In this document: positions 53,445 to 63,919 of the stretch, piece after piece
How the letters are laid out: every line of letters starts with the position of its first letter
How positions within the stretch are numbered: position 1 is the first letter of the stretch
DNA from: Salminus brasiliensis
Taxonomy: Eukaryota > Chordata > Actinopteri > Characiformes > Bryconidae
Assembly: GCF_030463535.1 (NCBI RefSeq)
Contig: NC_132883.1
Coordinates: forward strand, 35,461,241 to 35,525,240
Length of the DNA stretch: 64,000 bases
Direction of reading: 5' to 3'
Made by a program: the position numbers and the translations under genes
The notes under the pieces: model-generated
Told to the model about the DNA's origin: nothing
Databases searched by the model: none
The model's input: the letters and a program-made list of their open reading frames with translations, nothing else

Positions 53445-53516
53445 TGGAGATGCTGGGGATTGAACTCAGGACCTCATACATGCAAAGCATGCACTCTACC
53501 ACTGAGCTACATCCCC
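53445..53516 (-). tRNA. tRNA-Ala (TGC)
   Basis: First gene of the main array. The minus strand starts GGGGATG TA GCTCAGTGGTAGAG and ends CATCTCCA. Loop TTTGCAT gives anticodon TGC, on the minus strand at 53,482-53,484. B box GGTTCAATCCCC-type (here AGTTCAATCC). Confidence 0.8.
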
Positions 53517-53671
53517 AACTTGCTGTAGGTTGTCGACAATGTGCCCATGGGACAAGCCAAAGCTTTAAACTTACATTGAGGGCAGAGTTAAAATCCTGCA
53601 TAGTCAGCATTTTAACATAGTAACCTGGAACATCATATATGATGACATTGGGCAGAATCTTCCAAGAAAGA

Positions 53672-53743
53672 AGGCACGGACAGGGGTCGAACCCATGATC
53701 TTCGGTTTACAAGACCGACGCCTTGCCACTTGGCCATCGCGCT
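53672..53743 (-). tRNA. tRNA-Thr (TGT)
   Basis: A box TGGCCAAGTGG, loop CTTGTAA (TGT), B box GGTTCGACCCC. The acceptor first pair is A-C (5' AGCGCGA), so slightly damaged. Confidence 0.7.
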
Positions 53744-53977
53744 CGCAACCTTGGTTTTTAATTGGTGTGGAGGCACTAAACAAATGTACCTGTAAAAGCA
53801 ACAGGAGTTATTTACCTGAGCATAACAGTAAACATCCTTCTGATACTGTCTCAGAACATGCAAATCAAGCAAGTTCCTCCAGCAGCAAATGCCTTTTTAA
53901 TGAATATTATTTGTTGTGGTTTTGATTCACTTCAGCATGCTTCCAATAATGAGCTTCAGTCTAAAAGACAAATTCAG

Positions 53978-54049
53978 TGGAAATGCTGGGGATTGAACCC
54001 AGGACCTCACACATGCGAAGCATGCGCTCTACCACTGAGCAACATCCCC
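53978..54049 (-). tRNA. tRNA-Ala (CGC)
   Basis: Loop TTCGCAT gives CGC. All stems pair, with one change at position 9 (T for A) next to the D stem. Fourth acceptor pair is G-U. Confidence 0.75.
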
Positions 54050-54232
54050 AACTTGCTGTAGGTTGTTGGCAAAGTGCCCATGGGACAAGCCAAAGCTTTA
54101 AACTTACAGCTAGGGCAGAGTTAAAAATCTGCATAGTCAGCATTTTAAACATAGTAAGCTGGAACATCATATATGATGGGGCATGCAAAAGCTACCAGCA
54201 AAGTGACATTGGGCAGAATCTTCCAAGAAAGA

Positions 54233-54304
54233 AGGCACGGACAGGAGTCGAACCCATGATGTTCGGTTTACGAGACCGACGCCTTACCACTTGGCCACGT
54301 TTGC
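54233..54304 (-). tRNA. tRNA-Thr (CGT), acceptor damaged
   Basis: Body and anticodon loop CTCGTAA are intact. The 5' acceptor strand (GCAAACG) does not pair with CCGTGCC, so it may be a pseudogene. Confidence 0.55.
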
Positions 54305-54627
54305 CAGTCAACCCACCTAGTCCCATGGCTCTATGCCTCAACTGGTCACCTAACAATTCTTGGCTGACTCAACTAATAAATTCTTGCTAAATGCTCAGTT
54401 TGACCTTTTAGCAAACGTTGGTGTGACCTCTGCTTCAGTACAAGAATTTGCATGTACTCCCATCCTGGGCACCGTGCAACACATGTGGCAGAACTTGTCT
54501 AGAACTATATGTCTGGTTTGTGTTTTTCTGAAGTTGCAAAGAAATACTCTAATAGGTCAGACAATGGAGAAAAATTCCTGATCCTCGTAGTCTGAAGTTG
54601 CAAAAAACTGCCTAGCAGGTTATAACA

Positions 54628-54699
54628 TGGAGATGCAGGGGATTGAACCCTGGACCTCATACATGCAAAGCATGCGCGCTACCACTGAGCTACATCCCC
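54628..54699 (-). tRNA. tRNA-Ala (TGC)
   Basis: Loop TTTGCAT. T stem CAGGG/CCCTG pairs fully. One D-stem mismatch from GCGC in place of GAGC. A TTTTTT run lies downstream. Confidence 0.75.
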
Positions 54700-54822
54700 T
54701 CTGCCAATCTTCTGTTTGAGGAACCCAAGAGCATGAGTAAAAATAAGATAATCAGCAAAGATGGGGAGGATTTGATTAACATGTAATAAAAGCTCCCATT
54801 AAGCTTCTTTTTGCTTGGAAAA

Positions 54823-54894
54823 AGTCACGAACGGGGATTGAAGCCATGATTTTCGGTTTACAAGACGGACGCCTTGCCTCTTGGCCATCGCGCC
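54823..54894 (-). tRNA. tRNA-Thr (TGT), damaged T stem
   Basis: 5' GGCGCGATGGCCAAG. Loop CTTGTAA. Single mismatches in the anticodon stem (C-C) and T stem (GGCTTCAATCC), plus G-to-A (minus-strand) acceptor change near the 3' end (CGTGACT). Possibly non-functional. Confidence 0.6.
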
Positions 54895-55128
54895 CACAGC
54901 CTCAATTTTGAATTGGCGTGGAAGCACTGGACAAATGTACCTGTAAAAGCAACAGGAGTTAATTACCTGAGCATAACAGTAAACATTCTTCTGATACTGT
55001 CTCAGAACATGCAAATCAAGCAAGTTCCTCCAGCTGCAAATGCCTTTTTAATGAATATTATTTGTTGTGGTTTTGATTCACTTCAGCATGCTTCCAATAA
55101 TGAGCTTCAGTCTAAAAGACAAATTCAG

Positions 55129-55200
55129 TGGAGATGCTGGGGATTGAACCCAGGACCTCATACATGCGAAGCATGCGCTCTACCCCTGAGCTACATCCCC
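55129..55200 (-). tRNA. tRNA-Ala (CGC)
   Basis: All four stems pair. Loop TTCGCAT. D-loop reads AGGGGTA in place of AGTGGTA. TTTT follows about 16 bp downstream. Confidence 0.8.
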
Positions 55201-55382
55201 AACTTGCTTTAGGTTGTTGGCAATGTGCCCATGTGACAAGCCAAAGCTTTAAACTTACAGCTAGGGCAGAGTTAAAATCCTGCATAGTCAGCATTTTAAT
55301 ATAGTAAGCTGGAACATCATATATGATGGGGCATGCAAAAGCTACAAGCAAAGTGACATTGGGCAGAATCTTCCAAGAAAGA

Positions 55383-55454
55383 AGGCACGGACAGGGGTCG
55401 AACCCATGATGTTCAGTTTAAAATGCCGACACCTTACCACTTGGCCACCATGTC
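55383..55454 (-). pseudogene. tRNA-Thr body with anticodon loop ATTTTAA (TTT)
   Basis: Full-length Thr-type gene with a good B box (GGTTCGACCCC), but the anticodon arm is TCGGC ATTTTAA ACTGA. The arm has one mismatch and would read TTT (Lys). The acceptor has one A-C mismatch. Confidence 0.65.
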
Positions 55455-61786: not shown

Positions 61787-61858
61787 TGGAGATGCAGGGG
61801 ATTGAACCCTGGACCTCATACATGCAAAGCATGCGCTCTACCACTGAGCTACATCCCC
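61787..61858 (-). tRNA. tRNA-Ala (TGC)
   Basis: Second copy of 60,635-60,706, displaced by 1,152 bp. All stems pair. Confidence 0.87.
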
Positions 61859-61980
61859 TCTGCCAATCTTCTGTTTGAGGAACCCAAGAGCATGAGTAAA
61901 AGTAAGATAATCAGCAAAGATGGGGAGGATTTGATTGACATGTAATAAAAGCTCCCATTAAGCTTCTTTTTGCTTGGAAA

Positions 61981-62052
61981 AGGCATGAACGGTGATTGAA
62001 CCCGTGATCTTCGGTTTACAAGACCGATGCCTTGCCACTTGGCCATCGCGCC
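61981..62052 (-). tRNA. tRNA-Thr (TGT), GGCGCGA type
   Basis: Second copy of 60,829-60,900, displaced by 1,152 bp, with the same T-stem mismatch. Confidence 0.7.
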
Positions 62053-62286
62053 CACAGCTCTGGTTTTGAATTGGCGTGGAAGCACTGGACAAATGTACCT
62101 GTAAAAGCAACAGGAGTTAATTACCTGAGCATAACAGTAAACATTCTTCTGATACTGTCTCAGAACATGCAAATCAAGCAAGTTCCTCCAGCTGCAAATG
62201 CCTTTTTAATGAATATTATTTGTTGTGGCTTGGATTCACTTCAGCATGCTTCCAATAATGAGCTTCAGTCTAAAAGACAAATTCAG

Positions 62287-62358
62287 TGGAGATGCTGGGG
62301 ATTGAACCCAGGACCTCATACATGCGAAGCATGCGCTCTACCACTGAGCTACATCCCC
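62287..62358 (-). tRNA. tRNA-Ala (CGC)
   Basis: Third copy in the 1,152-bp register, with the canonical D-loop (AGTGGTA) restored. All stems pair. Confidence 0.88.
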
Positions 62359-62541
62359 AACTTGCTGTAGGTTGTTGGCAATGTGCCCATGGGACAAGCC
62401 AAAGCTTTAAACTTACAGCTAGGGCAGAGTTAAAAATCTGCATAGTCAGCATTTTAAACATAGTAAGCTGGAACATCATATATGATGGGGCATGCAAAAG
62501 CTACCAGCAAAGTGACATTGGGCAGAATCTTCCAAGAAAGA

Positions 62542-62613
62542 AGGCACGGACAGGAGTCGAACCCATGATGTTCGGTTTACGAGACCGACACCTTACCACT
62601 TGGCCACCATGTC
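62542..62613 (-). tRNA. tRNA-Thr (CGT)
   Basis: Loop CTCGTAA and B box GGTTCGACTCC intact. 5' acceptor GACATGG has one A-C mismatch; D-arm base change (GGTGTCGG). Confidence 0.7.
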
Positions 62614-62939
62614 TGCCAGTCAACCCACCTAGTCCCATGGCTCTATGCCTCAACTGGTCACCTAACAATTCTTGGCTGACTCAATGAATAAAATTCTTGC
62701 TAAATGCTCAGTTTGACCTTTTAGCAAACGTTGGTGTGACCTCTGCTTCAGTACAAGAATTTGCATGTACTCCCATCCTGGGCACCTTGCAACACATGTG
62801 GCAGAACTTGTCTAGAACTAAATGTCTGGTTTGTGTTTCTCTGAAGTTGCAAACAAATACTCTAATAGGTCAGACAATTAAGAAAAATTCCTGATCCTCG
62901 TAGTCTGAAGTTGCAAAAACAGCCCAGCAGCTTATAACA

Positions 62940-63011
62940 TGGAGATGCAGGGGACTGAACCCTGGACCTCATACATGCAAAGCATACGCTCTACCACTGA
63001 GCTACATCCCC
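62940..63011 (-). tRNA. tRNA-Ala (TGC)
   Basis: Loop TTTGCAT, anticodon stem TATGC/GTATG with G-U pairs, B box GGTTCAGTCCC, T stem CAGGG/CCCTG. Confidence 0.8.
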
Positions 63012-63193
63012 AACTTGCTGTAAGTTGTTGGCAATGTGCCCATGGGACAAGCCAAAGCTTTAAACTTACAGTGAGGGCAGAGTTAAAATCCTGCATAGTC
63101 AGCATTTTAACATAGTAAGCTGGAAAATCATATATGATGGGGCATGCAAAAGCTACCAGCAAAGTGACATTGGGCAGAATCTTCCAAGAAAGA

Positions 63194-63265
63194 AGGCACG
63201 GACGGGGGTCGAACCCATGATCTTCGGTTTACGAGACCGACGCCTTACCACTTGGCCACCATACC
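63194..63265 (-). tRNA. tRNA-Thr (CGT)
   Basis: 5' acceptor GGTATGG still pairs through a T-G. All other parts as in 57,779-57,850. Confidence 0.85.
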
Positions 63266-63592
63266 AGCTCATCAACTGTGCTAGTCCCATGACTCTATGT
63301 CTCAACCGGTCTCCTGACAATTCTTGGCTGACTCAATGAATAAAATTCTTGCTAAATGCTCAGTTTGACCTTTTAGCAAACGTTGGTGTGACCTCTGCTT
63401 CAGTACAAGAATTTGCATGTACTCCCATCCTGGGCACCTTGCAACACATGTGGCAGAACTTGTCTAGAACTAAATGTCTGGTTTGTGTTTTTCTGAAGTT
63501 GCAAAGAAATACTCTAATAGGTCAGACAATGGAGAAAAATTCCTGATCCTCGTAGTCTGAAGTTGCAAAAAACAGCCCAGCAGCTTATAACA

Positions 63593-63664
63593 TGGAGATG
63601 CAGGGGATTGAACCCTGGACCTCATACATGCAAAGCATGCGCTCTACCACTGAGCTACATCCCC
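63593..63664 (-). tRNA. tRNA-Ala (TGC)
   Basis: All stems pair. Same form as 58,178-58,249. TTTTTT run downstream. Confidence 0.88.
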
Positions 63665-63847
63665 AACTTGCTGTAGGTTGTTGGCAAAGTGCCCATGGGA
63701 CAAGCCAAAGCTTTAAACTAACACCTAGGGCAGAGTTAAAATCCTGCATAGTCAGCATTTTAAACATAGTAAGCTGGAACATCATATATGATGGGGCATG
63801 GAAAAGCTACCAGCAAAGTGACATTGGGCAGAATCTTCCATGAAAGA

Positions 63848-63919
63848 AGGCACGGACAGGGGTCGAAGCCATGATCTTCGGTTTACGAGACCGACGCCTT
63901 ACCACTTGGCCACCATGCC
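63848..63919 (-). tRNA. tRNA-Thr (CGT), T-stem mismatch
   Basis: Loop CTCGTAA and acceptor GGCATGG intact. GGCTTCGACC gives a C-C mismatch in the T stem. Last gene before the window edge. Confidence 0.7.

Follow-up and report, generated by a model that had tools for sequence, protein, structure and literature searches.

The oocyte-type transfer RNA (tRNA) genes of Xenopus are arranged in a great number of tandem repeats, with several isotypes and eight genes per unit, and in Arabidopsis the SYY cluster consists of 27 repeats. This Ser/Tyr cluster is silent and methylated, is activated in cells of the root cap, supporting a glycoprotein rich in Ser and Tyr (PMC12308677). Closer to the case that concerns us, teleost genomes carry large heterogeneous tDNA clusters of mixed isotypes with 50 or more members, an Arg/Thr cluster being one example, and in Danio the Arg-Thr pair (R-T) is among the commonest neighbours, in parallel orientation (PMC2888827). 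In zebrafish, the early isodecoders are encoded in repetitive regions and the late ones in scattered genes (PMC11417395), and the clustered tRNA genes are nearly fully methylated in embryos, their copy number not tracking tRNA level (PMC11574265). Here we describe an array of alternating tRNA-Ala and tRNA-Thr genes from the fish Salminus brasiliensis, the left edge of which lies in a stretch of 64,000 nucleotides (the window; C6:35461241-35525240, C6 being contig NC_132883.1) of a genome of 1.066 Gb in 103 contigs. A preliminary description of the window had held that such an array, beside the FGD3-SUSD3-CARD19 block, was not known as a described landmark. Landmarks of this kind are on record in the large mixed-isotype teleost clusters, the Arg/Thr one included (PMC2888827). 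A search of open-licence full texts turned up no report of an Ala/Thr array or of this locus; the kind of locus, however, is already known and the array is a further example of it. On balance, and with modest confidence, we read it from its sequence as a transposon-rich array in which the gene order would be a by-product of growth, the copies would be methylated in the germ line and drifting, and the whole would be a source of maternal, egg-type tRNA.

Thirty-six units on the minus strand (53443-63919 of the window) follow one another in strict Ala-Thr-Ala-Thr order, 18 of each, in a profile search whose models were Ala and Thr bodies derived from the array copies themselves. This bears out the preliminary description, which had read 36 strictly alternating genes in the same proportions. 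A random order of 18 and 18 would alternate strictly with a probability of 2.2e-10, a figure that treats the copies as independent draws although they arose as duplicates. ARAGORN called 34 of the 36 units (53444-63919, minus strand), taking two Thr bodies for Lys(TTT), and the two units that it did not call (54240-54298 and 54823-54894) are recognised by the Rfam model RF00005 at 42.2 and 40.9 bits. Scores of the 36 units range from 37.3 to 69.7 bits, all above the cut-off of that model (29 bits), and 30 reach at least 50 bits; the earlier estimate of at least 15-20 foldable genes was modest. Two unit sizes recur in the array, one of ca. 1152 bp (Ala-Thr-Ala-Thr) and one of ca. 653 bp (Ala-Thr).

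The left end first given for the array stands, but the right end, 63919, is merely where the window stops, and the array goes on for hundreds of kb. The window with the next 200 kb (264 kb contiguous) holds 313 genes called by ARAGORN and, from the array start on, 355 minus-strand units in the profile search (180 Ala and 175 Thr, truncated ones counted). Neighbours of the same type occur in 4 of the 354 adjacent pairs, each of them spanning a block of 22-34 kb free of tRNA genes. These four blocks are ca. 98-99% alike across long stretches, hold tandem copies of roughly 9.4 kb and begin, every one of them, at the 3' half of an Ala gene; a reverse-transcriptase frame is present at the border in the block and the stretches that we translated. 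Farther right, one-kb samples follow the array on to 36.086 Mb of C6, with a switch from the minus to the plus strand between 35.9060 and 35.9066 Mb and plus-strand units in the right-hand stretches read. Block sequence was last seen in the sample at 36.1402 Mb and was absent from the next one, at 36.1602 Mb. As sampled, the locus occupies about 0.63 Mb in two divergent arms interrupted by the transposon-rich blocks. A 500-base sample beyond it (C6:36260241-36260740) has a GC content of 0.00 and is probably a run of N.

A marker made from one class of Ala 3' end and flank matches the genome 230 times (137 times on the minus and 93 on the plus strand; control 0). The first 100 matches listed are all exact and all at C6:35.516-36.122 Mb, and 83 of the 230 fall within the 355-unit stretch, from which we estimate ca. 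980, perhaps 1,000, genes for the locus, on the assumptions that every match belongs to it and that the classes are evenly mixed. An older outpost lies on the same contig 3.6 Mb away (C6:31.86-31.91 Mb), with at least four Ala ends of the type called early below; both of the stretches read there, 1,002 bases in total, contain Ala and one of them also Thr, their matching parts having ca. 92% identity to the array. The locus shares with the teleost heterogeneous clusters a large number of close genes of two isotypes on one strand (the 355 minus-strand units), true tRNA genes by covariance score, in parallel orientation as in Danio (PMC2888827). It differs from the Arg/Thr cluster of that work in its isotypes, its size, its two opposed arms and its transposon blocks. 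Strict alternation is measured here; the passages on the Arg/Thr cluster are silent on whether its order strictly alternates (PMC2888827).

An exchange between two genes of the same isotype and orientation is certain, as a matter of logic, to preserve strict alternation any number of times, because an alternating left part is joined to an alternating right part at one isotype. Recombinant flanks show that exchange has occurred within the Ala genes or at their 5' edge. When flanks are clustered at a similarity of 0.7, the 180 Ala units comprise two native combinations (70 and 57) and the two reciprocal hybrids (29 and 10), the remainder being 9 units with a third 3' flank and 5 that start at a block or border; the short unit that we list as an example (Table 1) has an Ala gene with its 5' flank from one unit type and its 3' flank from the other. 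Since flanks of different classes fall below 0.7 similarity, the tRNA body that they have in common offers itself as the site of exchange, and the point of exchange lies 5' of the T stem because the T-stem pair 50:64 tracks the 3' flank: it is U:A in 68 of 68 native Ala(1,1) and 23 of 26 hybrid Ala(2,1) copies, and A:U in 64 of 64 and 11 of 11 copies with the other 3' flank. Thr hybrids are nearly absent (one or two of the 175 units). Segments of 15-25 kb are repeated at 98.75-99.62% identity and, given that such segments were copied whole, the Ala hybrids may derive from few events. We infer that the copies spread by unequal exchange together with segmental duplication, which would make the alternating order a by-product of the growth of the array and not a selected trait. 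Selection on the alternation is in any case unnecessary, as unequal exchange preserves the order anyway.

Mobile elements linked to tRNA genes were also compared with the array. Dada transposons inserted into a tRNA gene are flanked on both sides by halves of one gene (PMC8869645), whereas each of the four blocks here lies between an Ala 3' half and a complete Ala gene, so that the junctions do not support target-specific insertion of Dada as the origin of the blocks; two block reading frames matched no Pfam family. A tRNA-derived short interspersed element (SINE) or the long terminal repeat (LTR) element Helenus would be expected as scattered copies, each bounded by element ends and target duplications (PMC10886601). 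The array units lie head-to-tail with few spacer types, and the first 100 of the 230 marker matches listed are all at the locus.

The proposed link to the egg comes from the signature bases of the Ala genes. In zebrafish, Ala-TGC-1 (U47, U50:A64) prevails early and Ala-TGC-4 (C47, C50:G64) later (PMC11417395). Among the 185 array Ala copies that we registered (16 unregistrable copies, 2 too short, and matches covering fewer than ca. 72 model positions are outside the count), 94 have the early signature and none has the late one; A50:U64 is found with U47 in 82 and with C47 in 4, and the pair is mismatched in 5. The 3' end with C50:G64 has 13 exact matches in the genome, a pattern that misses degenerate copies of the late type, and none of the 13 is on C6. 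Twelve of them are intact tRNA-Ala genes (one on C1, two on C9, eight on C18 and one on C19) and the other is a fragment. Nine of the 12 are TGC genes with C47, the complete late signature, and three are CGC genes with U47, the bodies of all 12 being identical save for the anticodon wobble base and position 47. Over the 41 bases outside the pattern they are identical save for the wobble base, and 32 array copies, out of the 65 whose early-type 3' end is perfect, have this 5' half too. This early-type end has 189 exact matches in the genome, of which the first 100 listed are all on C6, four of these at the older outpost. At C3:31352430-31352650 a late-type tRNA-Ala is represented by its 3' 31 bases, the 5' part being missing, as if a copy had been truncated or a piece of tRNA inserted.

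As in zebrafish, the split is between repetitive regions and genes elsewhere, and the same T-stem pair divides the array from the other Ala genes; unlike in zebrafish, many array copies have A50:U64, the agreement at position 47 is partial, and the split here is one of sequence (PMC11417395). The signature bases suggest that the array would be the source of a maternal, egg-type pool of tRNA-Ala and tRNA-Thr, and that a few CpG-rich, invariant genes elsewhere would make the somatic tRNA-Ala. The array is thus probably of maternal type and silent in most tissues. With respect to Thr, zebrafish Thr-UGU-8 rises at gastrulation and its probe is published (PMC11574265). Its best match in the array departs from the probe at 6 of 27 bases, whereas each of three Thr genes on C1 has a single mismatch in 27; judged by this probe, the array Thr body is not Thr-UGU-8. 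Two further groups of tRNA genes are at C3:13.47-13.77 Mb, where the three genes read are Cys, and at C1:86.64-86.70 Mb, where the three read are Thr(TGT) and one base from the probe. Ca. 2.7 Mb to the right of the array a Lys(TTT)/Trp(CCA) array on opposite strands (C6:38.27-38.52 Mb; one to a few genes read) has a spacing of mostly multiples of 1323 bp.

The array Ala genes also stand apart in their CpG content. In the 75-nt flanks on each side, the observed/expected (o/e) ratio of CpG is 0.15 for 175 array Ala genes against 0.83 for the 12 intact Ala genes elsewhere. Transitions in the gene bodies affect 13.6% of copy-sites at CpG and 1.3% at other sites, the corresponding figures being 17.2% and 1.5% in the upstream flanks and 24.9% and 1.0% in the downstream ones. 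Such CpG decay is the mark of long germ-line methylation, and we infer that the array is methylated in the germ line. Taken with the pair-breaking substitutions, the scarcity of CpG beside the genes and its decay suggest that most copies would be in near-neutral drift, each of them dispensable. Mean pairwise diversity upstream, in the gene and downstream (the copies are related, hence no test statistic) is 0.048/0.030/0.058 in Ala(1,1), 0.062/0.061/0.059 in Ala(2,0) with (2,2), 0.031/0.051/0.035 in Ala(2,1), 0.080/0.097/0.026 in Thr(0,0) and 0.055/0.068/0.041 in Thr(1,1). Without CpG-prone sites the values are, in the same order, 0.044/0.017/0.050, 0.051/0.055/0.054, 0.028/0.044/0.024, 0.073/0.069/0.021 and 0.051/0.029/0.035. 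Single copies drift about as freely as the spacers in four of the five classes.

The preliminary description had reckoned with the case that most copies are pseudogenes. By covariance score they are not, as 251 of the 321 matches above the Rfam cut-off reach at least 50 bits (the 321 include 40 low scorers that were unlisted and whose family was not seen), yet every cloverleaf pair is kept in only 138 of the 313 copies examined, a count over ungapped copies above 50 bits in the profile search that omits the one or two units closest to the border. In that search 29 of the 355 units fall below 50 bits, 24 truncated Thr units and 5 Ala halves. Anticodon drift is seen in Thr(0,0), with CGC in 5 of 77 copies, TCT in 2 and TTT in 2, and in Ala(2,0), with TGA in 11 of 64; such copies, if transcribed and charged by body identity, could misread codons.

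The main rival to a maternal source is that the array is inert, namely a selfish, essentially silent satellite, grown by unequal exchange and heterochromatic in all tissues, in which the tRNA genes are relics without meaningful tRNA output. We regard this as quite possible but not probable, and several points that weigh against our own reading speak for it. Besides the low CpG ratio beside the array Ala genes and the CpG decay within gene bodies, broken cloverleaf pairs per distinct allele are as many as under random placement in 6 of the 6 classes tested, and only in Ala(1,1) is the gene more conserved than its flanks, its diversity being not clearly below theirs in the other four of five classes. 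The third 5' flank is found in 24 of the 175 Thr units, and all 24 are truncated and below 50 bits. Loss of CpG in the germ line is, moreover, at odds with steady activity in the oocyte, unless the methylation belongs to the male line or RNA polymerase III tolerates it. By analogy with the near-full methylation of the zebrafish clusters in embryos and their copy-number data, the array may be largely inert (PMC11574265). However, methylation in the embryo fits the maternal and the inert readings both, because eggs are loaded before that stage, and methylation does not settle activity, because the methylated plant array switches on in one tissue (PMC12308677). The CpG evidence has a limit of its own: the o/e ratio of the whole array, genes included, is 0.376 and not poorer than the 0.365 of the first 49 kb of the window, so that the contrast is with other Ala genes and not with the surroundings.

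Further points against a maternal source concern the signature. Two sites in a single published passage define the early/late rule, and from this passage the A50:U64 pair seen with U47 in the 82 array copies is absent (PMC11417395), and U50:A64 is found in only about half of the copies. Position 47 is not clean, with U47 in the three CGC genes among the 12 elsewhere, nor are these genes strictly scattered, six of them lying within 5 kb in mixed orientation (C18:31.169-31.174 Mb). If, as it seems, the list follows contig order, the other 89 early-type ends (26 minus, 63 plus) would lie on contigs after C6 or on C6 itself to the right of those listed.

Against a silent satellite stand, for their part, the high covariance scores of most matches and the diversity of Ala(1,1), lower in the gene (0.030) than in either flank. 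With CpG-prone sites excluded, Thr(1,1) also has its gene below its flanks. The pair G3:U70, the alanine identity pair, is retained in 165 of 169 Ala copies, and TTTT follows within ca. 50 nt downstream in 320 of the 355 units. Repetitive regions do, besides, yield early isodecoders in zebrafish (PMC11417395).

Another explanation, drawn by analogy from the Arabidopsis Ser/Tyr array, is that the locus would supply tRNA in one tissue for making an Ala/Thr-rich protein; we consider it very unlikely. Two isotypes have been amplified together, and the anticodons of the array are mostly TGC, CGC, TGT and CGT. Antifreeze glycoprotein, whose Thr-Ala-Ala repeats have codons read by these anticodons, was considered as a possible target, but no paper on such a link was found among open-licence full texts. 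In the plant there is the precedent of two tandem isotypes whose deletion alters the accumulation of a glycoprotein, and the two arrays are alike in being methylated tandem arrays of two isotypes, redundant with other genes and silent in most tissues (a silence that for the fish array we only suppose), although the other one belongs to a plant and has a known activation (PMC12308677); it is also far smaller. Xenopus oocyte-type repeats are alike in their tandem multi-isotype units and differ in their several isotypes and eight genes per unit. Linkage alone, however, suffices for the strict coupling of Ala and Thr, and the pairing is one of several groupings in this genome, which also has Lys/Trp, Cys and Thr groups of tRNA genes. 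That the array was duplicated or misplaced on its scaffold by the assembly is extremely improbable. A 24.65 kb segment does recur at a distance of 41 kb with 99.62% identity, a value that a second haplotype retained in error could also show. Between its two copies, however, there are 55 differing sites and 39 gap positions, the diverged outpost lies on the same contig, and the sequence of the left border is common to the internal blocks.

The features of the window are collected in Table 1. The preliminary description had placed the array beside a block of FGD3, SUSD3 and CARD19. CARD19 is supported, the two exon parts taken together matching 4dwn, the Bcl10-interacting CARD protein (that is, CARD19), in phmmer (E 4.5e-27), while FGD3 and SUSD3 are recognised at the family level only, and CARD19 does not abut the array: ca. 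12 kb, with transposon sequence and old inverted units in it, separates the last recognised CARD19 exon (to 41408) from the first unit. It had also proposed the boundary of CARD19 and NINJ1, neighbours in human, as the site of the array. This we reject, as none of the six Ninjurin family matches in the genome is on C6, and because they are on C14, C25 and C2 this fish lacks the human CARD19-NINJ1 neighbourhood. Two 3' ends of UnaL2-type long interspersed elements (LINEs) are present in the window at 36245-36298 (minus) and 49862-49915 (plus; Rfam RF00436).

Table 1. Features of the window, in window positions, with the evidence for each.
Feature	Position	Strand	Evidence
Array edge, 36 alternating tRNA-Ala/tRNA-Thr units, running on past the window end	53444..63919	-	ARAGORN, cmscan, profile search
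Thr body with anticodon TTT (ARAGORN: Lys)	55381..55455	-	Rfam, 37.3 bits
Second Thr body with anticodon TTT (ARAGORN: Lys)	58430..58504	-	Rfam, 37.8 bits
Long four-gene unit, example, ca. 1152 bp	59483..60634	-	Spacing and repeat families
Short two-gene unit, example, ca. 653 bp	57524..58176	-	Sequences; flank classes over the array
Left border, transposon-related	51507..53443		blastn, 93% (51507-52013) and 98% (52021-53443) identity to the end of the array-interrupting blocks
Reverse-transcriptase fragment	52803..53345	-	Pfam RVT_1, E 2.7e-14; same frame in 3 other border stretches translated
Five older, more degenerate inverted units, Thr-Ala-Thr-Ala-Thr	49408..50599	+	Profile search; cmscan also at 50037-50093 and 50525-50596
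CARD19 exon (part of stretch)	40333..40569	+	phmmer; alone without Pfam match
CARD19 exon (part of stretch)	41190..41408	+	Pfam CARD, E 0.0015, below cut-off; phmmer
Sushi-domain exon, fits SUSD3 (family-level match)	32516..32767	+	Pfam Sushi, E 0.00057, at cut-off
RhoGEF exon, fits an FGD-family gene (family-level match)	6282..6524	+	Pfam RhoGEF, E 6.3e-9; PDB FGD6, E 6.2e-6

It is conceivable, though we hold the idea as a tentative and rather doubtful one, that fishes keep two separate sets of tRNA-Ala genes, a methylated, egg-type mega-array with an altered 50:64 pair and a small, invariant somatic set. The split would be common to zebrafish and Salminus in spite of the fast turnover of the arrays, so that recombination within the array, and not selection on single genes, would set the sequence of the maternal tRNA. 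The work on zebrafish left open how tRNAs are selectively expressed early and late, and what role the thousands of clustered and methylated tRNA genes have. Now that the same T-stem pair is seen to divide the array from the other Ala genes in another fish as well, the question becomes testable by comparison. The alternation, for its part, would show how a strikingly regular gene order can arise without selection on the order itself.

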